Shown here: in pieces, positions 6,448-56,028 of the stretch
Numbering within the stretch: position 1 is the first letter of the stretch
How the letters are laid out: every line of letters begins with the position of its first letter
Virus record (IMG/VR): IMGVR_UViG_3300037247_002096
Coordinates: 1 to 62,005 of that record
Source of the DNA: a virus
Length of the DNA stretch: 62,005 bases
Strand: one strand, 5' to 3'
Notes under the pieces: generated by a model
What the model was told of the DNA's origin: nothing
The model's input: the letters and a program-made list of their open reading frames with translations, nothing else
Database searches by the model: none
Position numbers and translations under genes: made by a program

Positions 6448-6464
6448 AAATAAATGAGCCAATT

Positions 6465-7434: not shown

Positions 7435-7740
7435 ATGAGCGTTATTCCTACAACTACCAGAGGTGGCGATTTACCTTTTCAATTCGATTTGGATGGATTG
7501 CCTCTAGATGGTTTCATCTGCACAATCACGGTTAAAAAGCGTTCAGAATTGCCGGATGAAATCATCCGTAGGGTCATCACCCCAACAGACGATCTTTGGA
7601 CGGGGTTTTTAACCACAACAGAAGTCGCTGGTTTGTCCATTGGCCGTCATGAACTTATTGCGTTGATAGTCAATTCGAGCACTTTGGAAGGACAGGAAAA
7701 ACCAAAACGCTTTCAGGTCACAGCCAGTTGGAAAACTTGA
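7435..7740 (+). CDS. Receptor-binding-type beta module, paralogue B
   Basis: A 101-residue paralogue of the gene at 6073, without its repeat tail. Start ATG 7435 overlaps the preceding stop region. The two copies flank the fibre gene at 6465, so an A-fibre-B arrangement probably arose by duplication together with fibre exchange. Likely a small tail adaptor; no enzymatic signature. Confidence 0.7.
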   Translation: MSVIPTTTRGGDLPFQFDLDGLPLDGFICTITVKKRSELPDEIIRRVITPTDDLWTGFLTTTEVAGLSIGRHELIALIVNSSTLEGQEKPKRFQVTASWKT

Positions 7741-8922: not shown

Positions 8923-9263
8923 AAGAATATCCCAATTTAAAACCCTTTGAACCAGGTAAATCTGGCAACCCAAAAGGCCGACCAACAGGTGCAAAGACTG
9001 GGCTTAGAGCACGTCTGTTGCGGGCTCTGGATGATAAAGCCGACGCTGATATTTTAGAAAAGCTCAAAGAAAAGGGCATAAATCTCAAAGATAATGATTA
9101 TGCGGAAGTCATTGCCCACGTTTTGATAAGGCAAGCTGTCAAAGGAAATATTCAATCGATCAGAACCCTTTTGGAAAACACCGAAAGCCCAATGCCAAAA
9201 GAAATTAACTTAACCGGCGATATGATTGTATATATTGGAGACAAAGATGCTGGCAACCTCTGA
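8904..9263 (+). CDS. Terminase small subunit (probable)
   Basis: A 119-residue protein with the N-terminal signature FEPGKSGNPKGRP(T)G at residues 14-28, the DUF5681-type motif often found directly before large terminase genes, followed by a helical domain (RARLLRALDD, AHVLIRQAVKG). It overlaps the large-terminase start. Role: recognises packaging DNA and recruits the motor. The family link to small terminase is by position. Confidence 0.8.
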   Translation: MSDEDVKEYPNLKPFEPGKSGNPKGRPTGAKTGLRARLLRALDDKADADILEKLKEKGINLKDNDYAEVIAHVLIRQAVKGNIQSIRTLLENTESPMPKEINLTGDMIVYIGDKDAGNL

Positions 9264-10646: not shown

Positions 10647-10838
10647 ATGTCTAAAGAAAATAAAAAAATCAGTGATTTGGATCATGCTGACCCTGGATGC
10701 CCAAATTGCGAAGGTGAAGGATGGGTTTGTGAAGTTCACGAAACAATCCCTTGGGATTTTGGCGATGGTTGTTGTGGCGAAGCTGGGACACCGTGCCAAT
10801 GTAACCCGTTGAGTGAGCGTAAATCCATTCTCAATTAG
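10647..10838 (+). CDS. Small Cys-rich protein
   Basis: A 63-residue protein with CPNCEGEGWVCEVH, a CC pair and a CQC near the end, eight cysteines in all. The CP-C-G-GW pattern resembles DnaJ-like or small phage zinc-binding proteins found next to terminase or portal genes. It ends in TAG. It overlaps nothing and is followed by the portal ribosome site. Function unknown. Confidence 0.7.
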   Translation: MSKENKKISDLDHADPGCPNCEGEGWVCEVHETIPWDFGDGCCGEAGTPCQCNPLSERKSILN

Positions 10839-10860
10839 TTTTTTATTAAAGGAAATTAAT

Positions 10861-13777: not shown

Positions 13778-14746
13778 ATGGGACAAGAACAGGATCAAGA
13801 CGAGCAAACAGCAACAGTGACCCTGGATGAAAAGCCAAAAGTTGACCAAGAAAACGTTGAAAACCTGGAACAAATCGACGGTCAAGTTTTAGAACAGGAT
13901 GACGGTCAGGGCCAGGAAGAAGACGACCAAAAAGGTGAGACCAAAGCTGAAGAAGAAGATCTTGGGGTCGAAGTTGTATTGGAATCTTCTGATAAAGCTC
14001 CCGAAAAAGAAACGCGAAAAAACTTCGGGAAACGCATTCAGAAGATGAACGAGAAAATTGATGTTGCGGAGCAAGGCGAACAAAAAGCCAACGATAAGTT
14101 GCAAAAGGCCAATGATCGCATCGCTCAGTTGGAGGACCAAAATAAGATTCAAAACTTGGCTTTGGACAAAAATGGCCAAGGTTCTGATCCCAATGGTCCG
14201 CCTGATCCGGAAAAATTTGATGCTGGTGAATATGACCCGGAATACAGGAAACAACTCAACGCATATCAGGACGCTCGCCAAGACGCTCGCATGGATCAGC
14301 GATTTGCGAAAAAGGTGCAAGAGGTTGAAGGAACTGCCAAAGAAAGGCAGGTGCAAAATGCACGGGATTACGCTCTGGAACAAAAGCAGGAAGTTCATTA
14401 CGACAGAGCCTTGAATATGGGAGTGCCCAAGCAGGATTACTACGATACAGAAGATAAAGTCATCGCTGTATTAGGTAAGGCTGCGGTCAATACCATTATC
14501 AAGAGCATCCCCAACGCGCACAAAATTCTTTATTACCTCGGTAAAAATCCTAAAGCCGTTGAAGAAATTGCTGATTCCTTAAATGCTGATCCTGTCACTG
14601 GGATTAATGACATAGCAGTTATGGGCGCAAAAATAACTGTTAAAAAAATAACAAAACATGTCCGCGACCCTGACAAGGAATTGGAAGGGGGAACGCCCGC
14701 ATCTTCTAAAAAGATGAGGGGGCCACCAGGCGCGACATTTTCATAA
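13778..14746 (+). CDS. Scaffolding protein (probable)
   Basis: A 322-residue, extremely acidic and Gln-rich N-terminus (residues 1-80) is followed by a coiled coil (residues 85-135) and a helical C-terminal domain ending in basic residues (SSKKMRG). This matches the style of P22 gp8 scaffolds, which bind coat through a basic C-terminal helix-turn-helix. It lies directly before the coat gene with 11 bp between. It should guide procapsid assembly and leave the mature head. Confidence 0.85.
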   Translation: MGQEQDQDEQTATVTLDEKPKVDQENVENLEQIDGQVLEQDDGQGQEEDDQKGETKAEEEDLGVEVVLESSDKAPEKETRKNFGKRIQKMNEKIDVAEQGEQKANDKLQKANDRIAQLEDQNKIQNLALDKNGQGSDPNGPPDPEKFDAGEYDPEYRKQLNAYQDARQDARMDQRFAKKVQEVEGTAKERQVQNARDYALEQKQEVHYDRALNMGVPKQDYYDTEDKVIAVLGKAAVNTIIKSIPNAHKILYYLGKNPKAVEEIADSLNADPVTGINDIAVMGAKITVKKITKHVRDPDKELEGGTPASSKKMRGPPGATFS

Positions 14747-14757
14747 GGAATTAGAAA

Positions 14758-16062
14758 ATGGCAAACAATTTTGACAGTAATTTTACTGAAAAACTCATGC
14801 GGATATTTCTGGAGAAATTCGAGTCCGCACGTGTGTTGTCGAAAAACGTAAACACACAGCTTTTGAGTGGAGTTTACGACCCAAACAGCGGTGATGTTGT
14901 TTCATTCAAACGACCTACGGATTTCACCGCTGTTGAGAATGCTACAGGTGATTTAACGGGTGTTACCCCGGACGACATTATTGCTGGTAAAGCATCTGGT
15001 GTTGTGCAGAATTACATCACGGTTTTTGTAAATTTTGATGAAGCGGACCAAGCTCTTAAAATGGGGCAAATAGACGAGTTGTTGGCACCAATGGCGACTC
15101 GTGTTGTCACCCAATTGGAGTTAAATTTTGCAAGATTCATGATGAGAAATTCCGGTCTGTTGTCTGGTGATTATGGTGTGCCAGTCACAATTTGGGATCA
15201 TGTCGCAAATTTTAGTTCTGTCATGCAAGCCACCGGCGTTCCGATGGACAGCACCTGGAATGTTGCGATCAACCCGTTCACTCAAACTGCTTTGGCATCA
15301 AATCAAAGGTCTTTGGGTTCTGGCGGAGTTTCTGGTGCTTTGGTTATGAGCGCACATGAACGAGCTATGATTTCCTCTAGCTTCGCAAATATGCAGGTCA
15401 TGTCTGCAACGACTTTGGCCACACATACTCAACCTGCAACAGGTGACAGGAGCGGTACAGTCGTTGGAACGCCGTCACCTACTTATGTAGCTGCCAAGGA
15501 CACAATGACCCAGCTTATCAACGTTGATGGATTTGGTACATTCACCGGAACCATTCCTGCTGGTACGGTTATTCAGATAACGGGTGCTGTTGATGCTTTG
15601 AACAGACTCAATCTTTCAACCCGTGAAGAAATCGTCGATGGTTCAGGTAACGCGGTGTTATTCACCGGCGTTTTGGAACTAGATTTGGTTCTTGCAACTG
15701 GTGCAGGTCCAGCGACAATAACTGGTCCCGCAATTTTTGAAAATGCTCCTGGTACTGGTGGTCATAACACGGTTAATCGTGCCATTGTTGCCGCTGATGT
15801 TGTAACCCTTTTAGGTTTGGATTCTGTAACTTACCAACCGAATCTTTTTTGGCACAGGCAGGCTTTTTCCATTGGATCAGTTGACATCAAGAAATTGTTC
15901 TCAACCGATACTTTGGGCCAGACGGAAGACGGTATGAAACTACGTGTCAGTAAATTTGCTGATGGTGTGACCAACGTTCAGAAAATCAGAATTGATTTGC
16001 GGCCTGCTTTTGCAGCCTTGAATCCGTTCTTCGCTGGGCAGGGTTGGGGTATCACTCCGTAA
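14758..16062 (+). CDS. Major capsid protein, P22 coat family
   Basis: A 434-residue protein (P22 gp5: 430). The N-terminal SARVLSKNVNTQLLSG followed by GDVV-FKRP and the segment LTQL-like ALKMGQIDELLAPMATRV are typical of the P22 coat family. Residues 220-310 (TYVAAKDTM through FTGVLE) correspond to the inserted I-domain region, and the end is a conserved beta strand set ending LNPFFAGQGWG. HK97-like fold forms the icosahedral shell. A hairpin terminator follows. Confidence 0.94.
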   Translation: MANNFDSNFTEKLMRIFLEKFESARVLSKNVNTQLLSGVYDPNSGDVVSFKRPTDFTAVENATGDLTGVTPDDIIAGKASGVVQNYITVFVNFDEADQALKMGQIDELLAPMATRVVTQLELNFARFMMRNSGLLSGDYGVPVTIWDHVANFSSVMQATGVPMDSTWNVAINPFTQTALASNQRSLGSGGVSGALVMSAHERAMISSSFANMQVMSATTLATHTQPATGDRSGTVVGTPSPTYVAAKDTMTQLINVDGFGTFTGTIPAGTVIQITGAVDALNRLNLSTREEIVDGSGNAVLFTGVLELDLVLATGAGPATITGPAIFENAPGTGGHNTVNRAIVAADVVTLLGLDSVTYQPNLFWHRQAFSIGSVDIKKLFSTDTLGQTEDGMKLRVSKFADGVTNVQKIRIDLRPAFAALNPFFAGQGWGITP

Positions 16063-16132: not shown

Positions 16133-16585
16133 ATGTCTTCTGGGACCAAAATAATAACAAAAGCGTTTAAGCGGCTCGGTGTATTCACCGTTTTTAACAT
16201 CCCTCCCAATGAAGCAATCATTGAAGGAATGGAGAGATTAAACGGCATGTTGGACAGTTGGAGAACAAAATTTGTAAATATTCCATTCAACGAATTGACC
16301 GTGCCAGGCCAAGAATTGGGTGAACCTGTTGATGCAACAAATACCATTATCGATAATTTAGCAATAAATTTGGCGCCAGATTATGACGGTACTGAAACCG
16401 GAAATGTTTCTCCGACTTTAATACGAAATGCCAGAGTAGGCTTGATCAATTTGAAGAGGGCTTATCGATGTCAGCCCATTCCGCAGTTCACCTTATCCAG
16501 CACAACACCAGTCGGCCAAGGCAATCAAGATGGATTGTTTAATCTTAGCGTTTTTTGGGGTGTCAATAGACCAAAAGGTGGGTAA
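16133..16585 (+). CDS. Tail accessory factor, P22 gp4-like
   Basis: A 150-residue protein in the gp4 position between coat and gp10. The N-terminal II-KAFKRLGV and ERLNGMLDSW segments fit the P22 tail accessory factor family, which binds below the portal ring. Some relatives have muramidase activity; I see no clear catalytic residue here. The final bases of this gene (16566-16584) recur after the next two genes, which marks an insertion. Confidence 0.82.
   Translation: MSSGTKIITKAFKRLGVFTVFNIPPNEAIIEGMERLNGMLDSWRTKFVNIPFNELTVPGQELGEPVDATNTIIDNLAINLAPDYDGTETGNVSPTLIRNARVGLINLKRAYRCQPIPQFTLSSTTPVGQGNQDGLFNLSVFWGVNRPKGG
16566..16584 (+). repeat. 19-bp direct repeat, left copy
   Basis: ATAGACCAAAAGGTGGGTA at the end of the gp4-like gene is repeated exactly at 17291-17309, just before the gp10-like gene. 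The pair brackets the 16613 and 16788 genes, as expected if that cassette was inserted at the gp4-gp10 junction with duplication of the target. Confidence 0.95.
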
Positions 16586-16612: not shown

Positions 16613-16819
16613 ATGTCTCAAAATTTGGAAGATAGGAACGAATTTGCATCTAGTTCAATATTTAAAAAAATGTTTCAGCATTCTGATCCAGAAAAAAACC
16701 CGGAATCAGATGCAATTAATAATTTGGATAAATTACTTTCCAAAATACCGAAAAAAGAAAATTTAAATATTTTAGAATGGGAAGATCTTGAAAAACTACA
16801 ATCCAATAATCTGCGTTGA
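16613..16819 (+). CDS. Small hypothetical protein in inserted cassette
   Basis: A 68-residue polar helical protein with an AGGAGAAG ribosome site before ATG 16613. It overlaps the start of the HAD-like gene by about 30 bases. It is rich in Asn, Lys and Glu, unlike the virion genes around it, consistent with a cargo origin. Function unknown. Confidence 0.55.
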   Translation: MSQNLEDRNEFASSSIFKKMFQHSDPEKNPESDAINNLDKLLSKIPKKENLNILEWEDLEKLQSNNLR

Positions 16820-17294
16820 TTTTGATGGAGTTATCCATTCGTATAATTCGGGATGGAAAGGTGCTGATATTATCCCTGACCCGCCTGTCCCTGGTGCTAT
16901 TAAATGGCTTGAGGATCATTTGCCTGTCCCCGATGAATTGGGTATGAGCGGTGAATATAAGGGGCCTATCGTTCAAATATATTCCTCTCGCTCAAAGCAA
17001 AGTGGCGGAATTAAGGCAATGAAGGAATGGCTGATCCGGCATGGTTTGCACAAGAGTTATATCTCGGATGGAATTTTAGAATTTCCAACACAGAAACCAG
17101 CGGCATTTTTAACGATAGATGATCGGGCAATCTGTTTTCGAGGGACGTTTCCAACTACTGATGAAATGATGCAGTTTAGACCTTGGAATAAAAAACCTGA
17201 AATTGGCGAGCTTGAAGCTATCATTGACCGGTTTCCTGATTCGATAGAATTAGGATCAAACGGCTCAATTATTGTCAAACAACCCAATCGATAG
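16788..17294 (+). CDS. HAD-superfamily phosphatase/hydrolase
   Basis: A 168-residue protein starting at TTG 16788 with GGAAG 5 bases upstream. Residues 11-17 DFDGVIH are the HAD motif I nucleophile loop; YSSRS near 63 corresponds to motif II, a conserved Lys precedes FLTIDDRA near 104-110, the motif III-IV acidic pair. A cytoplasmic phosphatase acting on a small metabolite or nucleotide is likely; substrate unknown. It ends in TAG and is in frame with gp10: reading UAG would add seven codons and fuse the two proteins. Confidence 0.88.
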   Translation: MKNYNPIICVDFDGVIHSYNSGWKGADIIPDPPVPGAIKWLEDHLPVPDELGMSGEYKGPIVQIYSSRSKQSGGIKAMKEWLIRHGLHKSYISDGILEFPTQKPAAFLTIDDRAICFRGTFPTTDEMMQFRPWNKKPEIGELEAIIDRFPDSIELGSNGSIIVKQPNR

Positions 17295-17315: not shown

Positions 17316-19154
17316 ATGGCTGAAATCCCATTTCCTGATGGACTGCAAGGCGTAAACGCTTTGCCAAAAACCAAAAGGGTTCTCACAAATTGTTATAGGA
17401 ATAGAAAAGGGGAGCTTTTGGGTCGCCGTGGAATCGATCAACTGAATACCACTGGAAAAGTTGCCAGAGGGCAATTTGAATGGGATGAAAATCTTTATCA
17501 GGTGGTTTCGTCAAGCCTTATCAAAATAACCGATTTGACAACCGGTGCTTTTGTAACCATCGGCACAATTGCAGGATCCGCAACTATTCAAACAGCTATC
17601 GGATTCAATGATGCAGTCATTATCGTTAAGAACGGTGCCCTTTATACTCTAGGGAAAGAAACCGACACAACTGCCATTTCAAGCGTTGGAAGTGCATTCG
17701 GTGGCGTTGCCAGATTCAATCATGGCGGTTCTGCAGTGGGTGGGATTTCGACAGTCACCATAATAAATTTTGCAGCAAATCCTTTATACAATGTGGAAAA
17801 CACGAGCGTTTCATCTGTGGAACCTGAAATTTTTTCCACTGGTATTTCGAGTGTCACAGACAATGGAGGTATTGCTGTATTCAATCATTCCGGAACCTCA
17901 CCCCAATTAGGCCAGGAAGTCACAATTTCTGGTTACATAACCAACACCGCCTACAACACAACAGGCACGGTCACTGCCAGAACAGCATCCAACTTTGAAA
18001 TCTCAGCAATTGCTTTTGGCACCGACGAAGCTGTTGGAAGTTATGTTGGGCAAGCCTCATTTACCATCTCTTCAATAACGTTTGGAACTTCTGAAACGGT
18101 TGGTTTTTTTGCATCAATTTTGACCAATATTCTTGGCAATGCGAATTTTCGTACTTGTGTCAGCGTTACTCACAAAGACAATCGATTTATTTATTGTCCT
18201 GCAGACGGCTCCCCAGTTTTCTTTTCTGATGTGGGTGACGCTGGGAGTGTGCAGGTAGCCAGTTTTTTTGATGCAGAACAATTACCGGATGAAAATAATC
18301 AAGTATGGACATTAAAAAATATTCTCTTTATTACCGGAACGGATTCAATAGAACAATTCCAAAACAGAGGAACCACACCGGTTCCATTCGTCAGAAGTGA
18401 TGCCGGTGCAATTGATGCCGGTTTTATCGGCGGGGCGTTGGAATATAGAAACACCTTTTTATTTGTGGGCAGAGACAAAAATCAAGATTTTGGCATATAC
18501 AGCATAGGCTCTGGCATCGCCCCAAAGATCTCTAACAAAGCAATAGATACAATTCTTGGCACCTACACCATCAATGAATTATCCGAAGCGGTTGCAAGCC
18601 GAGTGAAATGGGAGGGTGATGACATCGCTACCTTTACGTTCAGGCGAGATTCCTTCGGTTTCTTTAATGGCGAGTGGTTTAGATTGGACACATTAATAAA
18701 CGGAACTTCTCGACCTTGGAGAGCCGGTTTTATAACTGAATTTGCAGGCGATTATTACACAGCGTTTGAAAACAAAATTGGCATATTTCAAGATTTAAAT
18801 ACCGACTATGGCGAAAGAACCATCCGTGTTATTCAATTCGGCATAAAACAACCAAATGATGATTGGTTCAGAGTGCAAAGCGTGACCCTTGGCATTAGCC
18901 AAGGCTTTAACGATATCGACACTTCTTCAGGTGTGGCAATTCAAATCAGCTTAGATAACCGCCTATTTTCTGAACCGTTTTTTCGCAACCTAAGTGCCAT
19001 TGGGAATTATGCCAGCAAATTAGTGTGGAATTATCCTGGAGGCATTGGGAATTTTGAAGGGTTTATGGCTATAAGAATTTCCACTGCAGAAGATGTGAAA
19101 TTCTCATCCGATCATTTAATCGTTGATGCAAAAGGGGCACTTGAACTGGCATGA
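17316..19154 (+). CDS. DNA stabilization / tail protein, P22 gp10-like
   Basis: A 612-residue protein in the gp10 position. The N-terminus (PFPDGLQGVNALPKTKRVLTN with NCYRN, RRGID) and the later FSDVGDAGS, NILFITGTDSIEQF and FVRSDAGAIDAGFIGG segments fit the P22 gp10 family of beta-propeller tail hub proteins (P22: 472). The extra ~140 residues (about 115-260) are inserted beta modules; one (LGQEVTISGYITNTAYNTTG) also occurs in the giant tail fibre. It closes the tail below gp4 and binds the fibres or needle. Confidence 0.85.
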   Translation: MAEIPFPDGLQGVNALPKTKRVLTNCYRNRKGELLGRRGIDQLNTTGKVARGQFEWDENLYQVVSSSLIKITDLTTGAFVTIGTIAGSATIQTAIGFNDAVIIVKNGALYTLGKETDTTAISSVGSAFGGVARFNHGGSAVGGISTVTIINFAANPLYNVENTSVSSVEPEIFSTGISSVTDNGGIAVFNHSGTSPQLGQEVTISGYITNTAYNTTGTVTARTASNFEISAIAFGTDEAVGSYVGQASFTISSITFGTSETVGFFASILTNILGNANFRTCVSVTHKDNRFIYCPADGSPVFFSDVGDAGSVQVASFFDAEQLPDENNQVWTLKNILFITGTDSIEQFQNRGTTPVPFVRSDAGAIDAGFIGGALEYRNTFLFVGRDKNQDFGIYSIGSGIAPKISNKAIDTILGTYTINELSEAVASRVKWEGDDIATFTFRRDSFGFFNGEWFRLDTLINGTSRPWRAGFITEFAGDYYTAFENKIGIFQDLNTDYGERTIRVIQFGIKQPNDDWFRVQSVTLGISQGFNDIDTSSGVAIQISLDNRLFSEPFFRNLSAIGNYASKLVWNYPGGIGNFEGFMAIRISTAEDVKFSSDHLIVDAKGALELA

Positions 19155-20441: not shown

Positions 20442-21320
20442 ATGGGTGCTTTTGCGGGGGCTGCAATATCTATCGGGGGATCATTGCTGGCAAGTTCTTT
20501 AGCCGGTGATGGCGATGGTGGCGGTGATGAAGGCGCAGGAATAAGCCAAGCTGCCATTGAGGAATTGAAAAGACAATTTGGACTTGTAGAGGAAAACGTT
20601 CAGCCTTTTATTGATGTTGGTGCACGGCAAATACCGGGTGTGGAACGTGCTGCCACAGTAGGAGGGCTTGACGAAATTCTTGGCGAAATATTCGGTACTG
20701 AAACTTTTAGAAATCTTGTTGGTGAAAGAACACGGGGAGTTCAGGGTGCCTTGTCTGCTGGTGGATTGACAAGATCAGGAACGGCAGTACAAGAACTCTC
20801 TGCAGTTCCACAAGATATTGGATTGGCTATTGAGCAATTAATTTCAGGAAGGCAAACAGATTTATTCAAAACTGGACTTGGAGCTACCTTAGATTTAGGT
20901 GGTTTAGGTATTCAAGGCGCATCCGCACAAGCTGGTGTCGGATCTGCCCAAGCTCAAAGAAGTTTTCAAGCCGGACAGGGTGCAAGTAGCAGACGTTCAG
21001 ATTTGATTGGAGGGCTTATTGGTGGTGGTGGTTCAATTATTGGTGGATTGGCACAAAGTGGATTTTTTAATTCCGATCCGTGGTTGAAAGAAAATGTAGA
21101 AATAATTGGGAAAATTGGTTCACTGAATCTATATCAGTGGGATTGGAGACCTGAAGTTGCTGATACATTTATCGGGAAATTCCCCACCATTGGTTTCATG
21201 GCAGACGAAGTGAAAAAACTTTACCCGCAATTTGTTAAGCCTTTATTCGGATTTGATGCTGTTCATTATTCAAACCTGTTAGACAAAATCGAGAGCGAAA
21301 ACGTTCTCGCTGCCGCATAA
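20442..21320 (+). CDS. Ejection protein, P22 gp7-like, with S74-type chaperone end
   Basis: A 292-residue Gly/Ala-rich protein with a hydrophobic N-terminus (AGAAISIGGSLLASSLA), in gp7 position. The segment VGERTRGVQGALSAGGLTRSG is common in DNA-transfer proteins. From residue ~210 the sequence SDPWLKENVEIIGKIGSLNLY fits the start of an S74-type intramolecular chaperone/autoprotease domain, usually seen at the ends of fibres. It is delivered into the cell with the DNA in P22-like phages. Confidence 0.8.
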   Translation: MGAFAGAAISIGGSLLASSLAGDGDGGGDEGAGISQAAIEELKRQFGLVEENVQPFIDVGARQIPGVERAATVGGLDEILGEIFGTETFRNLVGERTRGVQGALSAGGLTRSGTAVQELSAVPQDIGLAIEQLISGRQTDLFKTGLGATLDLGGLGIQGASAQAGVGSAQAQRSFQAGQGASSRRSDLIGGLIGGGGSIIGGLAQSGFFNSDPWLKENVEIIGKIGSLNLYQWDWRPEVADTFIGKFPTIGFMADEVKKLYPQFVKPLFGFDAVHYSNLLDKIESENVLAAA

Positions 21321-31024: not shown

Positions 31025-31453
31025 CTACTTACCTTTCCGATTTTTTTTTTGCTGACCCAATAATTGGGCCTCTAGGTTTTCAATTCTTACTTTAAGACGT
31101 GTAATTTCCTCAACAACTTCAAGCATTTGGATTCCCAGCATGTGAATATCCTCCCCTGAAGAATTTTCCAGATGTTGATCCCCTATTATTTTTTGAATAT
31201 TGGAAGGATATCGCTTTTGCCCGTTCCCTGTCAACAGCCAAACAAAGTTTACTAAATAAATTTTGCTCGTCAATAATATGACATGGGATGAAACGTTTGT
31301 TCTTTTGCCCTTTTCGATGTCATTGATATAACCCGAAGATACCTTTATAGAATCCCCAAATTTGCTCATACTCAGACCAGATTTTTGTCTCAGGTAGCAA
31401 AAACGCTCCCCTAGCGAATAATATTCGCTTTCTGCTGCATTTTCTGTTGACAT
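31025..31453 (-). CDS. CI-like repressor, XRE family
   Basis: A 142-residue protein with an XRE helix-turn-helix at residues 12-70 (LRQKSGLSMSKFGDSI, then GYINDIEKGKR). There is no LexA-like peptidase domain; instead residues 105-140 form a coiled coil likely used for oligomerisation, so induction would not follow RecA cleavage. It is transcribed away from the early operon at 31716 and the 262-bp gap contains operator-like repeats. Confidence 0.87.
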   Translation of the reverse strand: MSTENAAESEYYSLGERFCYLRQKSGLSMSKFGDSIKVSSGYINDIEKGKRTNVSSHVILLTSKIYLVNFVWLLTGNGQKRYPSNIQKIIGDQHLENSSGEDIHMLGIQMLEVVEEITRLKVRIENLEAQLLGQQKKNRKGK

Positions 31454-34282: not shown

Positions 34283-34341
34283 TGACCGCCAAAGTTGAAT
34301 AGCTGTTTATTTTTTTCCCACTTTAACAGGAGTTGAAAATC

Positions 34342-35403
34342 ATGGAAATAAACAATTTAAAAATCTTCGTTCGCGGTGCTTACGATCTACAAAAACTTCG
34401 TATCCAAATGGGGAATCGTATCGTTGCCAATTTCAAGGCGCGATTGGGCCAAAAGGCCGGTGAAAGTGAAGAAACCCTGGATGAAAAGGGTAAAGAACTG
34501 CTATCGCAAATTAGGAAAAGTTATAAAAAAATAACCGACAATGTAAAAACCTTCCCCCGACAATCAACATTTACTGGTGATCAGGTTATCAGCACGTTTA
34601 CCGAGCTTTGTTTGGTCGCACAATATGTCAGCCTTGAGACCCAGGAAGACAGCCACTTTAAAAGGCTGGGTTCCATGTTGAACGAGTATCCCATCTTTAC
34701 CGAATATCTCAAAGACGTTAGGGGCATCGGCCCAGCGATGGCTGGTGTGTTGATATCCGAAATCGATATCGAAAAATGCCAGTATCCATCCAGCTTGTGG
34801 AAATATTGCGGGCTTGACGTGGTTGCTGAATGGACATTGGACAGAGTTGTTGCTCTTGTTAATCCTGACAAAATTCCGCACAAGTTCCCTGAGAAAAGAC
34901 CTTTTTATATATTTAAAGACCAGTTTAACTTTTTGCACTTTGAGAAGGAAGGTGAGCCAAATGAATTGCATATTTTTTATAAAGAAAAAACCCTGAAAGC
35001 TAAATTAATTTATGTTTGGACAGGTGACCTTAAAGGACGTTCCAAGAAAAAGGAGCATTTGGTGCAAACTGAGTATATCGATAAAAACAATGAAGTGGCT
35101 TTTAAAATGGGCATCACTTTTAACCCATGGCTAAAATCCAAATTGATTGGTGTGCTGGCATCCTCATTTTTACGGGCGGGGGATAACATCTATAGCCAAG
35201 CCTATCGAGACTATAAAAACAGGATCGAGAATCACCCCGATCACCTTGAAAAGACAAAAGGACATCGCCATAACATGGCAATGCGCTACATGATTAAAAT
35301 ATTTTTAATCGACTTTCATAGAACTTGGCGAGCTATTGAGGAGTTGCCCGTTACCACCGTTTATTCTAAAGGCAAACTCGGAATTGTTCATAAAGCAGGA
35401 TAG
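34342..35403 (+). CDS. Tas-like RNA-guided protein (Nop/IS110-type, no nuclease)
   Basis: A 353-residue protein; ATG 34342 is used as AGGAG lies 9 bases upstream. Residues 120-160 (FTEYLKDVRGIGPAMAGVLI, then SSLWKYCGLDVV) are the helix-hairpin-helix core of IS110/IS116 transposases. Residues 258-335 are a paired-helix segment with RAG, A-R-Y and GHRHNMAMRYMIKIFLI, as in the IS110 C-terminus and Nop-like domains. Residues 165-250 are a beta-rich insert. There is no DEDD or RuvC domain, no HNH and no serine-recombinase-like nucleophile region of IS110. Directly after the TAG stop comes a 36-bp-period dual-spacer array, so it fits the nuclease-less TasA branch of TIGR-Tas systems. It should bind 36-nt guide RNAs. 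Confidence 0.87.
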   Translation: MEINNLKIFVRGAYDLQKLRIQMGNRIVANFKARLGQKAGESEETLDEKGKELLSQIRKSYKKITDNVKTFPRQSTFTGDQVISTFTELCLVAQYVSLETQEDSHFKRLGSMLNEYPIFTEYLKDVRGIGPAMAGVLISEIDIEKCQYPSSLWKYCGLDVVAEWTLDRVVALVNPDKIPHKFPEKRPFYIFKDQFNFLHFEKEGEPNELHIFYKEKTLKAKLIYVWTGDLKGRSKKKEHLVQTEYIDKNNEVAFKMGITFNPWLKSKLIGVLASSFLRAGDNIYSQAYRDYKNRIENHPDHLEKTKGHRHNMAMRYMIKIFLIDFHRTWRAIEELPVTTVYSKGKLGIVHKAG

Positions 35404-36342
35404 TCATGCCATATAAGAAACCCAATAGATAAGAGCGAGTCATAAAACTGAAGAAACCCAATATATGAAAGCGAGTCATTACATTATAGAAAACCATAAA
35501 AAGGAAGCGGGTCATTGAAGCAAAGAAACCCAAATCAATATAGCGAGTCAAAAAAATCCAGAAACCCAATGAAACGAAGCGAGTCATTAAACTTAAGAAA
35601 ACCAGAATGAAGAAGCGAGTCAACTATGGCTAGAAAACCAAAAATCTAAAGCGTGTCAAAAAGTAAAAGAAAACCAAATGAATGAAGCGTGTCAAAAAGA
35701 TTTAGAAAACCATATGAACGAAGCGTGTCAAGTAAAGAGAGAAAACCAATAATTCCAAGCGTGTCAATACTACATAGAAAACCAGTATCAATAAGCGTGT
35801 CATAGGAGAATAGTAATCCACTTTCCTAAAGCGGGCCAATAGTTTTTAGAAAACCAATAAAAGAAAGCGAGTCAAATTGAGGTAGAAACCCATTAGAGAA
35901 AAGCGTGTCATAAAAGCTTAGGAAACCAAAAAACTAAAGCGTGTCACTTCCAACGAGTAAACCTAATGAAGGAAGCGCGTCAATAAGAAAAAGGAAACCA
36001 ATATCGTTTAGCGAGTCAATGTATAGAAGAAAACCATAATGAGGAAGCGTGTCATAGTGAGCAAGAAAACCAAGAGGAAAAAGCGTGTCAATAGGCATGA
36101 GAAACCCACAGAAAATAAGCGAGCCAGTGAAAGCGAGAAAACCAAGCTAAAAGAGCGAGTCACAACCACTAAGAAACCCAACAATATGGAGCGTGTCAAT
36201 GAAGTTTAGAAACCCAATGTCTAGAAGCGAGTCACTACATCAAAGAAAACCATTATAAGGAAGCGAGCCACAGCAATAAAGAAAACCATAATAGTTAAGC
36301 GAGTCAAAAGACAAAAGAAAACCACAGAAGAAAAGCGATTAT
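35398..36342 (+). repeat. TIGR array 1, 26 units
   Basis: Exact 36-bp period with no indel. Loop box AGAAA(A/C)CCA first at 35416 and last at 36316; edge box AGCG(A/T)GTCA; each is separated by a 9-base spacer. The first edge (35398-35406, ending AGTCA) is degenerate and contains the tas stop codon; the last edge (36334-36342, AGCGATTAT) is also degenerate. 52 spacers, nearly all different. Examples before/after the loop box: tgccatata/atagataag, taaaactga/atatatgaa, ttacattat/taaaaagga, aaagacaaa/cagaagaaa. Drifted loops: AGTAATCCA (35812), AGTAAACCT (35956). It is probably transcribed with tas and cut into 36-nt RNAs. Confidence 0.93.
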
Positions 36343-36839: not shown

Positions 36840-36945
36840 GCACTGATTACCATAAATGACCAATTCCATCAAAAGAAAAAGTATGGTATATAATGCAACG
36901 CACTGGAAAGGTCGGTGGCTTCGGTTTTCCGAAAGGGAGGATCCG

Positions 36946-37908
36946 ATGGCCGAATACATGGTCCAGCGAGGCGTCAACAAGATTTGGTATGCTCAGAAAC
37001 GCATCAACGGCTTGAGAATCAGAGATTGCCTGGGCACCACAGACGAACGTTTAGCACGTAAAAAATTCGCTGAATTAGAACTCGCTGTTGAAAAAGGAGA
37101 ATATAACTCGTTTAAAAAAGATTTCATGGTTGTTGTTGAGCAATTTCTTCCCACTGCGACGGTTCGTGAAGAGTTCATCATCCGTTGTCACTTGGTTCCT
37201 TATTTTTCCGCTTTTAAAATCGGAGAAATCAATGAATATGAAGTTTTCAAATACCATGAAGCCAATAAACTCAAACCAGAAAGTACCCTAAAAAAAGAGC
37301 TACGGTGCCTCAAAAAGATTGTCTGCCTAGGAAATCGAAATTTTCAACTCCCAAAACTGAAATTCGAGAATAAAGGCGAAAGATTCAATGAAACTCAGAT
37401 TCTCGAAGAATGTGACGTTTTAAATGTGATCAATCAATACGTATACCCTATATATCGAATTCCATGCTTAGTTTCGGCCTACTCCGCCTTACGCATGGGC
37501 AACGTGGTCCACCTTAAAAAGAAAAACGTCGATCTCAGAGATGGCTGGATCAACGTCCTTCAAACCAAAACCGGGCGACCGGTCAGCATCCCCATCAGCG
37601 GGAAATTGCGTAAAGTTTTCATGCAAATCAAGGTTTGGCCCTTAGGCGATGAGGACTTATTCTTCCCTGGAATATCATCAAAAGCCATGACAAACCAAGT
37701 TCTCCGGGCATTCAGACGTGCTGGCTTCTCCTGGGCCAGTTTTCATCATTTCCGACATTTTGCGGCTTGTTTCATGATCAACGCTGGTGTTCCCATCGAA
37801 GTGGTGCAAAAGATCCTCGGCCACGCTGATATCCGCTCAACACTCGTTTATGCACGTTTAAAAAGGCAAACATTAAAGGAGCACATGAAGGTTTGGGATG
37901 TAAAATAA
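36946..37908 (+). CDS. int: Tyrosine recombinase / integrase
   Basis: A 320-residue protein; ATG 36946 has GGGAGG 5 bases upstream. The catalytic set is complete: R183 (SALRMGN), K208 (LQTKTGR), H267-x-x-R270 (FHHFRHF), H293 (ILGHAD) and Y302 (VYARL). The N-terminal ~95 residues are the arm and core-binding parts. It should integrate and excise the genome. The gene reads rightward, away from the early operon hairpins. Confidence 0.95.
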   Translation: MAEYMVQRGVNKIWYAQKRINGLRIRDCLGTTDERLARKKFAELELAVEKGEYNSFKKDFMVVVEQFLPTATVREEFIIRCHLVPYFSAFKIGEINEYEVFKYHEANKLKPESTLKKELRCLKKIVCLGNRNFQLPKLKFENKGERFNETQILEECDVLNVINQYVYPIYRIPCLVSAYSALRMGNVVHLKKKNVDLRDGWINVLQTKTGRPVSIPISGKLRKVFMQIKVWPLGDEDLFFPGISSKAMTNQVLRAFRRAGFSWASFHHFRHFAACFMINAGVPIEVVQKILGHADIRSTLVYARLKRQTLKEHMKVWDVK

Positions 37909-40999: not shown

Positions 41000-42781
41000 C
41001 TATTCTAAAAAACCCAATCTCTCCATTGTAAAGATAGAAGGGATATACGGCGGCCAATAATCAGGGTTGGCGAAGTTAGTATCCCAACCATAGTTTCTTC
41101 TGGGGGGTGAGTAACATTTTCCACTCAAGCAAAAATCGCCATCAGCTTGTGAACTGATCCATAAGTTGATGAAAGCTCCCCGATAATTCAATGGTTTACT
41201 CCAGCGTTCATGCAAACGGGGATAATTATGCACTCCGCCACCCTTTTTACCATTCAATATTGATGGACTATTGCCGGAGAAAAACGCGGCGTTAACAGAA
41301 GTGCTTATATTGGCACTGGGTGCTGACAGATTGCATTCTTTTGTGGTCCAAGCGTTGGAAAGGATATTGATAGAATCTGAAATGATCGCCACACCCTTCC
41401 TGTTCACAGTATTAAAATCAGCCTCTATATATAACGGGTTGTCAGTCGCTATTGTGGTGTTGGACAACAATTGTGAGTCTGAATAGGTATTTATTTTTTT
41501 CAGACGGATGGCCTGTAAAGGATCTGCATCATTAACAAAAGTGGCGTCTGGAGACCGGGATGTATAAACTAAAATTCCATTTTCGCCCAGTGCGCCAAGT
41601 CCGTTGAAAGCTAAATAATCCTCGAACCAGAGTTCAAGAGCGTATAAATCAATATCAGTGGTGTCAACCCGGCGTTCTTCCCGCCAATCGCAAAAATCAT
41701 CTGGTGAATCTTGAATAATATCATCTGGCCCTGTGTAATACGGTCTTAATAATGGGTTAAAAATTTGATCGGTTACATCAGTACCAGGCGCGGGCCTTGA
41801 AACAAAAACTTTGATGTTTGAGCCTTGGCCGATAATAGTGATACCATCGACTCCGGGGATCAACGGGTTGAGTGCAACACCCTCGTAAAATCCGTTGCGT
41901 TGGAATAAAACCTTTCCGGGAGTTTTATGTGGCTGCTCATTGACTCTGATAAAACCTTTAAAATCATCTTCTAATGCAACTAAGTTGGAGGAATCATAGG
42001 TTTTGTCAAGCTCAATAAAATCCTCCCAAACGGTACTGGTATTCGAGATTTTCATTTCTGCAAATTTTGTTGCTGTGCCACCCGTTTTTTTATTAGTCAA
42101 TAAACTTCCAGTCACCGTTATTGAAAGAGGTGTTTGAATGAGTCCATCGGGGTCAAAATTTTGAAACCTGACATAGGGTTTTGTGCCGCCATTGCCGTAG
42201 GTTGCAACATGAAAATTTCCGTTGGTATGAATCCTGCCCCAACTGGTCCAATTTTTTCCGGGCATTAATTCCAGATCAGGGTCACCACCGGGATCGCCAT
42301 CGCCGCCATAAAATATAAACCATTGCACCAATGGGGTTTCCAATATGCGTATTTGTTCTGTCAAAGTTTCTTTAGAATTATCTGTGGTGGATCTGGAAGT
42401 GGCAATTATTTCATATTCGTGAGCATAATTATTGATGATGTTCTTACCATTTATGGTTTGGGTGAGATAACGGTCTTGGATTTTTGTGATGCTGTATTCA
42501 ACCTGGTGGTCGCGATATTCAGGCAGAGCAATGGCACCTCCTATAGGCTGATAAGGCACCAGATTCTCGAAACTTGTCACTATGGTAGCCACGGCTTGAT
42601 CCAACCCGGATTCTGCAGTGTAAAACGACTTCTTACCCTTTAAAAGCGCACGAGCAGATTCAAGGTTTAGCGAGGTCATTTGCAACGCGCCTACGGATAA
42701 AGCAAGCATTGCCGCCATCATGAACATAAATATAATGAGTGTGGAGCCTTTTTCCTGTTTCAACAGAGAGTGATAACACAT
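41000..42781 (-). CDS. PilX-like pilus assembly protein
   Basis: A 593-residue protein read leftward with GGAG 7 bases before ATG. Residues 9-60 are a class III prepilin-like start (KQEKG, then STLIIFMFMMAAMLALSVGA, then E/S-rich AESGLDQA), as in PilX N-terminal domains of minor pilin operons. The rest is a large beta-rich extracellular part. It is opposite to its neighbours, which fits independent capture from a host genome. Together with the pilin at 58216 it suggests the prophage alters type IV pili. Confidence 0.78.
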   Translation of the reverse strand: MCYHSLLKQEKGSTLIIFMFMMAAMLALSVGALQMTSLNLESARALLKGKKSFYTAESGLDQAVATIVTSFENLVPYQPIGGAIALPEYRDHQVEYSITKIQDRYLTQTINGKNIINNYAHEYEIIATSRSTTDNSKETLTEQIRILETPLVQWFIFYGGDGDPGGDPDLELMPGKNWTSWGRIHTNGNFHVATYGNGGTKPYVRFQNFDPDGLIQTPLSITVTGSLLTNKKTGGTATKFAEMKISNTSTVWEDFIELDKTYDSSNLVALEDDFKGFIRVNEQPHKTPGKVLFQRNGFYEGVALNPLIPGVDGITIIGQGSNIKVFVSRPAPGTDVTDQIFNPLLRPYYTGPDDIIQDSPDDFCDWREERRVDTTDIDLYALELWFEDYLAFNGLGALGENGILVYTSRSPDATFVNDADPLQAIRLKKINTYSDSQLLSNTTIATDNPLYIEADFNTVNRKGVAIISDSINILSNAWTTKECNLSAPSANISTSVNAAFFSGNSPSILNGKKGGGVHNYPRLHERWSKPLNYRGAFINLWISSQADGDFCLSGKCYSPPRRNYGWDTNFANPDYWPPYIPSIFTMERLGFLE

Positions 42782-50170: not shown

Positions 50171-51055
50171 ATGGAGAAAAATAAAATACCTAAAGCCACG
50201 CATTCAGGAATTCTTGAAATCGGGGAAATAAAAATTCAATGTTATGTTTTAGAAGATCGAACAAGGGTAATTTCCCAGGGCGGAATGGGAAAGGCACTTG
50301 GAAAAAGTCGAGGACGCGATTTAGCCGTTTTCTTAACAAGAAAGGGACTCAAACCCTTTATTTCTAAACAACTCCTCGACGACATCAAAAAACCCAGACT
50401 TTTCATTCCGCCGCATGGCGGAAAGCCTGGATATGCATATAAAGCAACGGTTCTAGCTGATATTTGTGAAGCTGTTTTAAAATGTAGAGCAGAAGGAAAA
50501 CTTAAAGCCCAACTTAAACATATTGCGACACAATGTGAAATTCTTGTGCGAGCTTTTATGAAAGTTGGAATTATCGCATTGGTGGATGATGCGACTGAAT
50601 TTTCCAAGCTGAAATCTGAATATAGACAATTATTTAAAGAGTTTATAAGAGATGAAGCGGGAAAATGGGAGAAGCAATTCCCAGATGATATTTATGATAT
50701 TTTCTATAAAATTTATGAGCTTCCTAGGTCCGAGAATAAAAATAAGCACCCTTTATTTTTTGCTAATTTGACACGTAAATATATTTATGAGCCATTGGCT
50801 GGAAGCAATGGTGGGCTTTTAAAAATGCTTGATGAAAAAAATCCAATATTAATTTCAAATTCTGGGAAAAAAAAGAGAAAATTTAAATTTCACCAATTTC
50901 TTGAAAAAATAGGAATAAATACCCTCCAGCAACATATGTGGCAATTAATTGGTATTGGGAAGGCATCTTCAAATAAAAATTCATTTAATAGAAATTTTAA
51001 TAGGACATTTTCTAAAAATTATCAATTCCATTTATTTGATGAAGATGAAGAATAA
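50171..51055 (+). CDS. P63C-domain protein 1
   Basis: A 294-residue protein. The C-terminal half (ALVDDATEF, FIRDEAGKWEKQFPDDIYDIFYKIYEL) matches the P63C domain found in phage antirepressor-like proteins. The N-terminal half (CYVLEDRTRVISQGGMGKALG) is the companion DNA-related domain. A paralogue is at 51842, with a HigA-like regulator and shared repeats between them. Probable antirepressor or regulator. Confidence 0.85.
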   Translation: MEKNKIPKATHSGILEIGEIKIQCYVLEDRTRVISQGGMGKALGKSRGRDLAVFLTRKGLKPFISKQLLDDIKKPRLFIPPHGGKPGYAYKATVLADICEAVLKCRAEGKLKAQLKHIATQCEILVRAFMKVGIIALVDDATEFSKLKSEYRQLFKEFIRDEAGKWEKQFPDDIYDIFYKIYELPRSENKNKHPLFFANLTRKYIYEPLAGSNGGLLKMLDEKNPILISNSGKKKRKFKFHQFLEKIGINTLQQHMWQLIGIGKASSNKNSFNRNFNRTFSKNYQFHLFDEDEE

Positions 51056-51227: not shown

Positions 51228-51341
51228 CGTCTTTCTCATATTATCAAAATACGAGCCATCGATTCTTTCCAGTTTCCTTTATTTTTCAATAGCATAGCCT
51301 ACCTCGCTTTAACCCCATTCTCAAAAAGGCCAAATTTTAGG

Positions 51342-51366
51342 TGGCCACAAACCGTCCACAAGTCGC
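51342..51366 (+). repeat. Double GGCCACAA-type site 2
   Basis: Same 25-bp sequence as 51115 except the first base pair. Lies before the HigA-like gene. Confidence 0.85.
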
Positions 51367-51400
51367 CATTTTAGGTTATTATAGGGGGTGTAATTCACAG

Positions 51401-51425
51401 GTGGCCACAAGTTGGCCACAAGTCG
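51401..51425 (+). repeat. Double GGCCACAA-type site 3
   Basis: GTGGCCACAAGTTGGCCACA then AGTCG. Both boxes are GGCCACAA here. It ends at the ribosome site of the HigA-like gene, ideal for autorepression. Confidence 0.87.
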
Positions 51426-51439
51426 AAAGGGGGATGGAT

Positions 51440-51799
51440 ATGGAAATTTGGGTTATCAAAACCAAAGAACAACATCAAAAATATTTAAAGGAAATTGAGA
51501 AATTGATGGGGTTGTCTATTAAACTCAATTCCTTGGAATCAAAACGATTAGAATTGTTGGGAGTTTTGGTGGAGAAATATGAAAAGGAAAAATTTCCTTT
51601 TGAAATACCAACTGCCATCGAAGCTGTTAAATTTCGGATGGAACAGCAAAATTTATCCAGGAAAGATCTGATCCCTTATATGGGTTGCCGTAGTAGGGTT
51701 TCGGAATTCTTTTCTGGAAAACGCGCTTTATCAAAAAATGTCATCCGTTCACTAAGTGAGGGTCTTGAAATTCCAATAGAGATTCTATTTGGAAAATAA
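51440..51799 (+). CDS. HigA-like antitoxin/regulator, orphan
   Basis: A 119-residue protein; ATG 51440 is favoured by AAAGGGGG upstream (51434 is possible). The N-terminal LIKTKEQHQKYLKEIEKLMG-like helix, LESKRLELLGVLVEKYEKE, and the helix-turn-helix PTAIEAVKFRMEQQNLSRKD with SRVSEFFSGKRALS are the HigA-family plan. No HigB toxin is next to it. It sits between two P63C genes and double repeats that it may bind. Confidence 0.88.
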   Translation: MEIWVIKTKEQHQKYLKEIEKLMGLSIKLNSLESKRLELLGVLVEKYEKEKFPFEIPTAIEAVKFRMEQQNLSRKDLIPYMGCRSRVSEFFSGKRALSKNVIRSLSEGLEIPIEILFGK

Positions 51800-51841: not shown

Positions 51842-52720
51842 ATGTCACCAGAAAAAGAAGAAGAAAAAATTAAAAACCAATCTGATTTACCATTTGCCAA
51901 ATGGCGCGGGATAATAGATTTAGGCGGCAATGAGCTTGATTGTTATGTTTTGGACACTGGTCAAAGAGTAATTTCTATTCGTGCCACAATTAAAGCCATC
52001 GCAGATATTGACTCTGGAAACCTGGGCAGTTATATAGAGGCAAATGCACTTAAACCCTTTATAAATAACGATAAAATCCTGGGCGAACTTTTGGAGTTTT
52101 CGATCCCTGGAACACAATTAAAGGGTCTTGGTCTTACGACAGAACATTTTGAATTAATATGCCGTGGTTATGTGCAGGCTCTTTATACAAAAGCAGTTTT
52201 AACTGATAGGCAAACAGAAATCGCTATCAAATGCGCTGTATTGTCTGCTGGTTTGACAAGAACCGGTCTTGATGCCCTGGTCGATGAAGCCACAGGTTAT
52301 CAATTTGAGCGTTCTACTGATGCTCTGCAAATTAAACTTAAAGCTTTTATTGCAGAGGAATTGCGTGCATGGGAAAAAACATTCCCTGATCAACTTTGGG
52401 AAGAATTTGGTCGTCTAACAAACTGGCAAGGAGCTCTGAGAAGTAGACCAAAATGGTGGGGTAAATTAGTTATAGAATTGATTTATGACACACTTGATCC
52501 TGACGTTGCAGAATATCTGAAGAACAACAAGCCAGAACCGGGCATTCATTGGCATAGGAGGTTAACCGAAAATTTAGGCGTCAGTCAGTTAGTCTCTCGG
52601 TGCTATGAGGTGATTGGTATGGCCAAAGTCTGTAAAGATATAAAACAACTCAGACAGATGGTCGCACAACATTATGGTAAAAAACCTTTGCAATTCACAA
52701 TGTATTTCTATGAAAAATAA
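51842..52720 (+). CDS. P63C-domain protein 2
   Basis: A 292-residue paralogue of the 50171 protein. ALVDEATGYQFERSTDAL and FIAEELRAWEKTFPDQLWEEF are the core P63C signature, closer to the consensus than copy 1. The N-terminal part has CYVLDTGQRVISIRATIKA. Start ATG 51842 lies after AAAGGGGGATGGATA. Probable antirepressor-like regulator. Confidence 0.88.
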   Translation: MSPEKEEEKIKNQSDLPFAKWRGIIDLGGNELDCYVLDTGQRVISIRATIKAIADIDSGNLGSYIEANALKPFINNDKILGELLEFSIPGTQLKGLGLTTEHFELICRGYVQALYTKAVLTDRQTEIAIKCAVLSAGLTRTGLDALVDEATGYQFERSTDALQIKLKAFIAEELRAWEKTFPDQLWEEFGRLTNWQGALRSRPKWWGKLVIELIYDTLDPDVAEYLKNNKPEPGIHWHRRLTENLGVSQLVSRCYEVIGMAKVCKDIKQLRQMVAQHYGKKPLQFTMYFYEK

Positions 52721-53579: not shown

Positions 53580-54937
53580 ATCGTGTCATTTTAATCTAGA
53601 AACCCAAAAAGGAAAAGCGAGTCATTCACGCAAAGAAAACCACAATCACAAAGCGAGTCAAAGTACCGAGAAACCCAAAAAAATATAGCGAGTCAAACGT
53701 CCGCAGAAAACCAGACCCAAAGAGCGAGTCAAATCATTTTAGAAAACCAATGGATTCAAGCGAGTCATGTTATGACAGAAAACCAATAAGCCAAAGCGTG
53801 TCATTATCTGGAAGAAACCCAAAGCATGTAAGCGTGTCAGTACTGATAAGAAAACCAGTGATAATAAGCGTGTCAAGTTGACTTAGAAACCCAATATAAT
53901 AAAGCGAGTCAATAAGTTCTAGAAAACCACATAAAGTAAGCGTGTCAAACGTCCGCAGAAAACCAGACCCAAATAGCGAGTCATGTTATGACAGAAAACC
54001 AATAAGCCAAAGCGTGTCAAAATCACAAAGAAACCCAATGCCATATAGCGAGTCATGATATATGAGAAACCCATAGTGATAAAGCGCGTCATAAGAATTG
54101 AGAAACCCAGAGCCAAAGAGCGAGTCAATATTTCCAAGAAACCCAATATAATAAAGCGAGTCAAATCTATTGAGGAAACCAATAAATCTAAGCGTGTCAA
54201 TACCAACTAGAAAACCAAAATCACAAAGCGAGTCATTACATTATAGAAACCCAGAAAAACGAAGCGTGTCATAATTATCAAGAAACCCAAAAAGCTGGAG
54301 CGAGTCAAATTTGACTAGAAACCCATAATAAGTAAGCGTGTCAAAATCACAAAGAAACCCAATGCCATATAGCGAGTCATACCATTACAGAAACCCAATG
54401 AAGCAGAGCGCGTCATTTCATCGAAGAAACCCATAGTGGTAAAGCGAGTCAATATTACGAAGAAACCCAAAGAGGAAAAGCGAGTCAAATTTGACTAGAA
54501 ACCCATAATAAGTAAGCGTGTCAACTCAACCAAGAAACCCAGATTAATAAAGCGAGTCATTCAACAGTAGAAAACCACAGAAGAAAAGCGTGTCATTTTA
54601 ATTGAGAAATCCAGAAAAAAGAAGCGAGTCAGTATAGCGAAGAAACCCATAGTGGTAAAGCGAGTCAATATTACGAAGAAACCCAAAATAGGGAAGCGAG
54701 TCATACCAGCCTAGGAAACCAAAGTATGTAAGCGAGTCATGTTGAGAAAGAAAACCACATAAAGTAAGCGTGTCAAACGTCCGAAGTAAACCAATGGAAA
54801 AGAGCGAGTCATTTCATCGAAGAAACCCATAGTGGTAAAGCGAGTCATTTGAAACTAGAAACCCAGGGTAAAGTAGCGCGTCATTAAAATAAAGAAAACC
54901 AAGAGAAAAAAGCGATTCAAATAATCTTAGAAAACCA
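53580..54937 (+). repeat. TIGR array 2, 37 full units plus remnant
   Basis: 38 loop boxes AGAAA(A/C)CCA from 53598 to 54929 alternate with AGCG(A/T)GTCA edges at 36-bp spacing; only one unit (loop at 53669) is 35 bp. First edge ATCGTGTCA (53580) and the terminal edge AGCGATTCA (54911) are degenerate. Repeated units keep spacer-loop-spacer together: aacgtccgc/gacccaaa(g,t), tgttatgac/ataagccaa, aaatcacaa/atgccatat, aatttgact/taataagta and tttcatcga/tagtggtaa each occur twice. ttacattat and cagaagaaa are also in array 1. No tas gene is next to it, so it probably uses the one at 34342. Confidence 0.93.
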
Positions 54938-55032: not shown

Positions 55033-55422
55033 ATGAAATCGATTTATTGTTGGAACAAAAGAATGGCATTAAAAAGGAAGCTGTCCATCTTGGCATATAT
55101 GATCGTCCGTCTCAAAGACGATAGAAAAACTGTGCGGCCAAAAAAGTTTCCCGAATTTATCCGACCTTGCGGGGTGTGGTTGGACACTACCCAATCAGAA
55201 TTTCGTTATCATCACATTGCCGCGTCTATGATGCGTGGTAAAACTATTGAAGAAATTGAAAGATTGCCAAAAGATCCAAATACCAAGGATTCTAGGATTC
55301 GACCTAATATGCGAATGGTCAACACAATTATGGAGGGTTGTTTGGATGAAAATGTATGTGCTGGTATTGAACAGCCTAACGAGGTCTCAGCAAGCGGTGC
55401 AGGGCGGCCATGCCCTGGCTGA
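55033..55422 (+). CDS. Hypothetical protein
   Basis: A 129-residue basic protein with GGAGAATTAAA before ATG. The middle (FRYHHIAASMMRGKTIEEIE and DSRIRPNMRMVN) looks like a compact helical DNA-related domain, but no family is recognised. It overlaps the Pth2-like start by 77 bp. Confidence 0.55.
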   Translation: MKSIYCWNKRMALKRKLSILAYMIVRLKDDRKTVRPKKFPEFIRPCGVWLDTTQSEFRYHHIAASMMRGKTIEEIERLPKDPNTKDSRIRPNMRMVNTIMEGCLDENVCAGIEQPNEVSASGAGRPCPG

Positions 55423-55645
55423 ATATATTATGCGGAAATGGGATAATGGCAGATTAACCGTTGAATGGGAAAATGGGGATCTTGTCTATCTCAGAGCAAC
55501 TTGGGGTGAATTAATGCTTTATAATTCCGAATCTTCTAATAATGCCGTTGCTTTTTATGAACCGGATATGAGAGGCGAAATCACCGCTGTTGCCATGCTG
55601 GGCGATGACAAAGACATCCGCTTCAGGGGTTTTCGTTTGATGTAA
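55346..55645 (+). CDS. Peptidyl-tRNA hydrolase Pth2-like protein
   Basis: A 99-residue protein; ATG 55346 (or 55352). MYVLVLNSLTRSQQAVQGGH followed by ALAEYI is the opening of the Pth2 family (V-x-L-x-x-x-G/Q-QAVQ-x-GHA), with later strands (LVYLRAT) in place. Pth2 frees tRNA from stalled peptidyl-tRNA. It lies 12 bp before a phage tRNA gene, so a joint role in tRNA economy is attractive. The length is slightly short for the family (about 115). Confidence 0.75.
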   Translation: MKMYVLVLNSLTRSQQAVQGGHALAEYIMRKWDNGRLTVEWENGDLVYLRATWGELMLYNSESSNNAVAFYEPDMRGEITAVAMLGDDKDIRFRGFRLM

Positions 55646-55657
55646 ACTTTTTCACAA

Positions 55658-55727
55658 GCCTATGTAGCAGATTGGAATGCAACTGGTTCTAAACCAGGTT
55701 ATGCGGGTTCGATCCCCGCCATAGGCT
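55658..55727 (+). tRNA. tRNA with anticodon CUA (amber suppressor)
   Basis: Perfect 7-bp acceptor GCCTATG/CATAGGC, D-stem GCA/TGC, anticodon stem CTGG/CCAG with loop TTCTAAA (U33, anticodon CTA, A37), T-stem GCGGG/CCCGC with TTCGATC. Discriminator T, no encoded CCA, then T6 terminator. The anticodon reads UAG. The D-arm is minimal and 27-43 is an A-G mismatch. The charging amino acid cannot be fixed from the sequence. Confidence 0.92.
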
Positions 55728-55770
55728 TTTTTGGAGTACAATATCTGTACTATAAAGAAAGGACACATCC

Positions 55771-56028
55771 ATGCCCGATAGTCACGGACAAATTCAAAGC
55801 GAAATCAAAGAGAAAATGCAATGCTGGGGTGAAGTGCTCGATGAAACTTTCAATGGCAAAGATTACAAAACAAAAGAGCCTAAATGGGGATTCGCTCTTT
55901 TGGTATTTCAGTTAGGGGAGGATGATGATGATGGAACGCATCGGATGAATTACATCAGCAATGCCAGAAGGCGAGATATGATCAAAGCCATGAAGGAATT
56001 CATCGCACGAGATGCCTTGAATAATTAA
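55771..56028 (+). CDS. Hypothetical protein
   Basis: An 85-residue acidic protein with GAAAGGACA before ATG. PKWGFALLVFQLGEDDDDGTHRMNYISNARRRDMIKAMKEF (given here as two parts: WGFALLVFQLG and MNYISNARR, then MIKAMKEFIAR) is a pattern known from a common small phage protein family. Role unknown. Confidence 0.65.
   Translation: MPDSHGQIQSEIKEKMQCWGEVLDETFNGKDYKTKEPKWGFALLVFQLGEDDDDGTHRMNYISNARRRDMIKAMKEFIARDALNN

Follow-up and report, generated by a model that had tools for sequence, protein, structure and literature searches.

A probable orphan amber-suppressor tRNA gene in a standard-code phage with P22-like head genes

A tRNA gene with anticodon CUA

The window, by which we mean the whole stretch of DNA that was analysed, is the 62,005-base IMG/VR virus contig IMGVR_UViG_3300037247_002096. 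Its head and packaging genes are P22-like. PHROGs matches mark a terminase large subunit (9226-10632), portal (10813-13038), scaffold (13778-14746), major head protein (14758-16062), head-tail adaptor (16133-16585), Hc3-like head closure protein (17316-19154), DNA-ejection protein (20442-21320) and integrase (36856-37908), and DNA methyltransferases are also encoded (PHROGs matches). The nearest bacterial matches of the terminase are Alphaproteobacteria loci (41-49%) and its nearest phage matches Synechococcus phages (46.5%). Only one close relative was found, the 58,420-base contig IMGVR_UViG_3300026543_000167, hereafter the relative, whose terminase is 93% identical to that of the window.

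A tRNA gene with anticodon CUA lies on the plus strand at 55658..55727, where a sequence-only reading of this DNA had placed it, and ARAGORN, Rfam and the predicted fold all confirm it. ARAGORN called it at 55657-55728 (+) as the sole tRNA within the window and labelled it 'tRNA-Pyl (cta)', a label given by the anticodon alone. tRNA scoring, which that reading had proposed as a check, agreed with this call and returned an intact cloverleaf: 55658-55727 matched Rfam RF00005 over the full model (1-71) with 61.8 bits (gathering score 29, E 5.4e-11), and the fold was predicted at -27 kcal/mol with a z of -2.83. The gene comprises a 7-bp acceptor stem (GCCTATG/CATAGGC) with discriminator T73 (U73), a D arm (GCAGATTGGAATGCA), an anticodon arm (ACTGGTTCTAAACCAGG), a 4-nt variable loop (TTAT) and a T arm (GCGGGTTCGATCCCCGC); the anticodon CTA (55689..55691, +) sits in the 7-nt loop TTCTAAA, which reads CTCTAAC in the relative.

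No CCA is encoded at the 3' end of the gene. The discriminator T and five further Ts form a T-run (55727..55732, +) that is kept in the alignment with the relative and, together with the acceptor stem, may serve as a terminator or as a 3' processing trailer; it went unflagged in a simple scan for terminators, and the strand of the tRNA showed no promoter-like site. The gene is flanked upstream by an ORF with a weak match to the phrog_3668 hydrolase family (55235..55645, +) and downstream by a gene for 85 aa (55771..56028, +). Both adjoin the tRNA in the relative as well, with 66% and 81% identity, respectively.

As tRNA-Pyl shares the CUA anticodon, we considered this identity and rejected it. 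tRNA-Pyl has a compact D loop and core and goes with a pylS gene. The window tRNA has G18G19, a TTCGA T-loop, an anticodon stem of 5 bp and two bases separating the acceptor from the D stem, all of them ordinary and unlike tRNA-Pyl, and no PylRS was present among the proteins scanned, a subset of the ORFs.

Anticodon and stems are kept in the relative

A syntenic CUA tRNA is present in the relative, flanked by the same two genes. The two tRNAs share 59 of their 70 positions, and the 11 differences are distributed unevenly: only 1 falls among the 40 paired positions and 10 fall among the 30 unpaired ones (Fisher p 0.0006). Moreover, the sole paired-position change, G43 to U, regains a Watson-Crick pair with A27. 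Anticodon, A37, every acceptor pair, U73 and the 3' T-run are the same in both. This pattern fits a functionally maintained tRNA rather than a decaying relic, although it comes from two related carriers with shared ancestry, from which independent retention does not follow. Position and conservation argue against an attachment-site reading of the tRNA, as the integrase lies about 18 kb off and the whole tRNA, including its anticodon, is kept.

When IMG/VR was scanned with DNA patterns for tRNAs of this type, the relative was the sole hit. An RF00005 search of 46 capsid-protein relatives, the majority of them fragments, and 7 further relatives found tRNAs in 3 genomes; any tRNA at all was present in 2 of the 46 other capsid-protein relatives, and in neither was it a CUA tRNA. 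For two of the three tRNA-bearing relatives the anticodons were read with ARAGORN, and CUA was absent among their three tRNAs.

Identity elements point to Cys or Gly

To narrow down the amino acid, we compared the tRNA with a reference set of 108 tRNAs, nearly all from Alphaproteobacteria. In this set, U73 occurs only in tRNA-Cys (4/4) and tRNA-Gly (6/6), and all four tRNA-Gln have G73. The D arm has a stem of 3 bp and apposes G13 to A22, and it scores closest to Ser and Cys; Ser identity is disfavoured because the variable loop has only 4 nt. The published bacterial determinants are U73, G1-C72, C2-G71, G3-C70, C35 and C36 for Gly, and U73, G2-C71, C3-G70 and G34 C35 A36 for Cys (PMC9976931). 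The tRNA matches the Gly set in U73, G1-C72 and C2-G71 and the Cys set in U73 and C3-G70, and its anticodon fully matches neither. Overall, these features suggest that the amino acid is Cys or Gly and that Gln is unlikely. As both CysRS and GlyRS use the anticodon as a major identity element (PMC9976931), charging could be poor and is probably reduced with either synthetase.

TAG is an ordinary stop in the window

The genome of the window reads the standard code 11, with TAG as an ordinary stop. The genes for terminase, portal, scaffold, capsid and Hc3-like protein are uninterrupted under code 11 and have no in-frame TAG, and their homologues in the relative stop at or near the same place. With TAG read as sense, the mechanical coding density went up from 0.772 to 0.827; the control treatments of TGA (0.842) and TAA (0.903) gave larger gains. 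The sequence-only view that the code is not fully changed is thus borne out. In blastp of frames with TAG as X, window against relative, the internal-TAG cases among the matches listed and read proved to be out-of-frame shadows, either of real genes or of a repeat array (described below). Neither contig has a gene of the RF-1 family (PF00472, which includes RF2), so UAG presumably remains a stop for host RF1.

All nine TAG triplets that had been named as gene ends are present, at 10838, 17294, 25318, 35403, 38445, 49845, 52967, 56937 and 59421. Eight of them close credible ORFs; the one at 59421 is doubtful, as its ORF, starting at 59203, overlaps another gene. Two genes on the minus strand with TAG stops (31025-31453 and 41000-42781) had been overlooked. 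In a mechanical set of 68 genes, stop usage was TAG 9, TAA 35 and TGA 24.

A probable orphan suppressor and its alternatives

We consider the best explanation, with a probability of about 0.68, to be an orphan amber-suppressor tRNA in an otherwise standard-code phage. Its transcript would be trimmed by host RNases and receive CCA from a host enzyme. Judging from U73, the acceptor and the D-arm features, host CysRS or GlyRS would then charge it with low to moderate efficiency, and the charged tRNA would compete at UAG with host RF1, so that all UAG stops, of phage and host alike, would be read through in part. Phage genes should tolerate this because TAG ends are few and a further stop is usually reached in about 20 codons or less. 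TAG is rarer in the two carriers (10/94 TAG-ended genes) than in major capsid protein (MCP) relatives of 38-44% GC (56/279; Fisher p 0.04, uncorrected for ancestry), a weak to marginal depletion, as the two carriers are one lineage. A second stop within 22 codons was found for 8/9 TAG genes and 37/59 others, which is not a significant difference (p 0.15). Our best guess is that the benefit lies in general low-level suppression, either rescuing amber mutations of the phage or disturbing UAG-ended host proteins, and not in one dedicated readthrough protein.

Alternatively, the effect might be directed mainly at the host, with UAG readthrough upsetting UAG-ended host proteins or defence factors while phage genes are buffered. 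Such a role has been proposed in an opinion paper for suppressor tRNAs of crAss-like phages (PMC11025619), and the lower TAG use of the two carriers also speaks for it. However, this depletion is marginal and stems from one lineage, and nine genes of the window retain TAG ends. We regard a mainly host-directed role as unlikely. Slightly less likely still is a related reading, in which a standard-code lineage would keep a non-Gln, Cys- or Gly-charged suppressor purely to impose UAG readthrough, global and at a low level, on the host during infection, its own genome buffered by few TAGs and nearby second stops.

A further possibility is programmed readthrough, in which the tRNA would time or tune C-terminal extensions of specific phage proteins. 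The most suggestive case is gene 16788-17294: past its TAG (17292-17294) the frame stays open for 619 codons, into the Hc3-like gene 17316-19154. Yet this gene is without a match in the relative, and there the gene preceding the Hc3-like gene ends in TAA just before it. In the other 8 of the 9 TAG genes the next non-TAG stop is at most 22 codons away, so that readthrough would add no more than 22 codons, and in-frame open neighbours are equally frequent after TAA and TGA: the distance to the next stop did not differ between TAG and TAA/TGA (Mann-Whitney p 0.96). The TAGs at 10838, 35403 and 38445 are conserved in the relative, but the short peptides downstream of them are not. The extension after 10838 runs over the portal gene's ribosome-binding site, that after 35403 enters the guide-RNA array described below and that after 38445 diverges from the relative after one codon. 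Nor can the TAG of the gene ending at 35403, which encodes a Tas protein, be tied to the tRNA, because four more distant Tas genes vary in their stop codons (TAA, TAG, TGA, TAA). In this comparison with one close relative, no conserved readthrough product was found. As the extensions are short and the sole large fusion is missing in the relative, the earlier proposal of a partial readthrough mode that makes extended proteins finds no support, and we judge it quite improbable.

We give equally little credence to a value outside UAG decoding, such as a decoy or replacement tRNA that absorbs tRNA-cutting host nucleases, or to a neutral leftover from a larger set of tRNAs. Phage tRNAs that resist host tRNA nucleases have been published (van den Berg 2023, as cited in PMC11025619), and the relative has two ordinary tRNAs, Arg(UCU) and Pro(UGG), of which one lies about 1.2 kb away. 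Against both versions, anticodon and every stem are kept while the loops vary, and the window retains the CUA tRNA but none of the ordinary ones. Finally, although 375 of 715 predicted code-15 phages have CUA suppressor tRNAs (PMC11210395), genome-wide recoding of UAG to Gln in the style of crAss-like or Lak phages has a negligible chance of being right, as it is contradicted already by the terminase, portal and capsid genes that are whole under code 11, by a density gain smaller than in the TGA and TAA controls, by the lack of RF2 in the PF00472 search of both phages and by U73 in place of the G73 of reference tRNA-Gln.

Comparison with other suppressor-carrying phages

The main paper on recoding phages is Borges et al. 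2022. RF2 is a frequent, although not universal, companion in phages that use code 15. Like the Crassvirales and Lak phages with this code, the window encodes a CUA tRNA (PMC11210395, PMC8346664, PMC9523058); in those phages TAG is sense (Gln) in many genes, whereas in the window it is not sense, and U73 argues against Gln. The orphan-suppressor reading has closer parallels. Stenotrophomonas siphophage Summit has one predicted amber suppressor, 12 TAG-ended genes, no readthrough targets and no synthetase (PMC9022506), and is thus likewise a standard-code phage with a CUA suppressor and no identified targets. Summit is a 95.7-kb siphophage of 58.5% GC with 5 tRNAs; the present contig measures 62 kb and encodes only one tRNA beside its P22-like genes for head and packaging, and here conservation of the tRNA in a relative is demonstrated. 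In the Xanthomonas jumbo phage XacN1, in silico readthrough of 18 ambers yielded no target genes (PMC5852040). A CUA suppressor tRNA is likewise encoded by Ralstonia phage RsoM2USA (PMC8504454). Both resemble the window in encoding a CUA suppressor without known recoding, but are jumbo phages of 340-385 kb with large tRNA sets.

Orphan CUA suppressors in standard-code phages without identifiable targets have therefore been published already, and the present case adds a smaller phage and a conservation test. The pair of genomes forms a comparative case in which anticodon and stems are kept across diverged genomes, with no target genes and with a non-Gln discriminator.

TIGR-Tas system and other features of the window

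The gene at 34333-35403 encodes a Tas protein (NF052498 TIGR_Tas_endo, 121.8 bits, cut-off 100). Directly 3' of it lies an array of about 25 units (35415-36324), and a second, detached array of about 37 units (53598-54930) is located about 18 kb away, upstream of the tRNA. Each 36-nt unit consists of 9-nt boxes, AGAAAMCCA and AGCGNGTCA, alternating with 9-nt variable spacers. TIGR arrays have 8-12-nt dual repeats and 9-nt spacers (PMC12045711), and we identify the 36-nt arrays, on this architecture, as TIGR guide-RNA arrays. Because one frame of the detached array (53992-54762) lacks TAA and TGA and contains eight TAGs, we also tried reading 53598-54930 as a coding repeat with TAG as sense; this was ruled out, as the dual 9-nt boxes and spacers are those of a TIGR array and a Tas gene is present in the window. 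Both arrays exceed the 5-15 units described as usual, and both have counterparts in the relative. In two other IMG/VR contigs (L211 and L213), Tas homologs (58-67% identity in the best segments) precede TIGR-like boxes, and in two more (L210 and L212) the Tas gene has no obvious array immediately 3' of it.

ORFs 6073-6447 and 7435-7740 both match one gene of the relative (68-69%), which suggests a duplication in the window around the putative tail or structural ORF 6390-7433. Elsewhere, two paralogs of the phage family phrog_2384 (50171-51055 and 51842-52720; E about 1e-81 and 1e-83) flank a regulator-like gene (51341-51799). A stretch at the start of this regulator-like ORF, 51302-51421, shows 87.5% translated identity to the relative over 40 residues, spanning a TAG, and its counterpart in the relative sits about 300 bases from the rest of the gene; this segment is possibly a conserved regulatory element.
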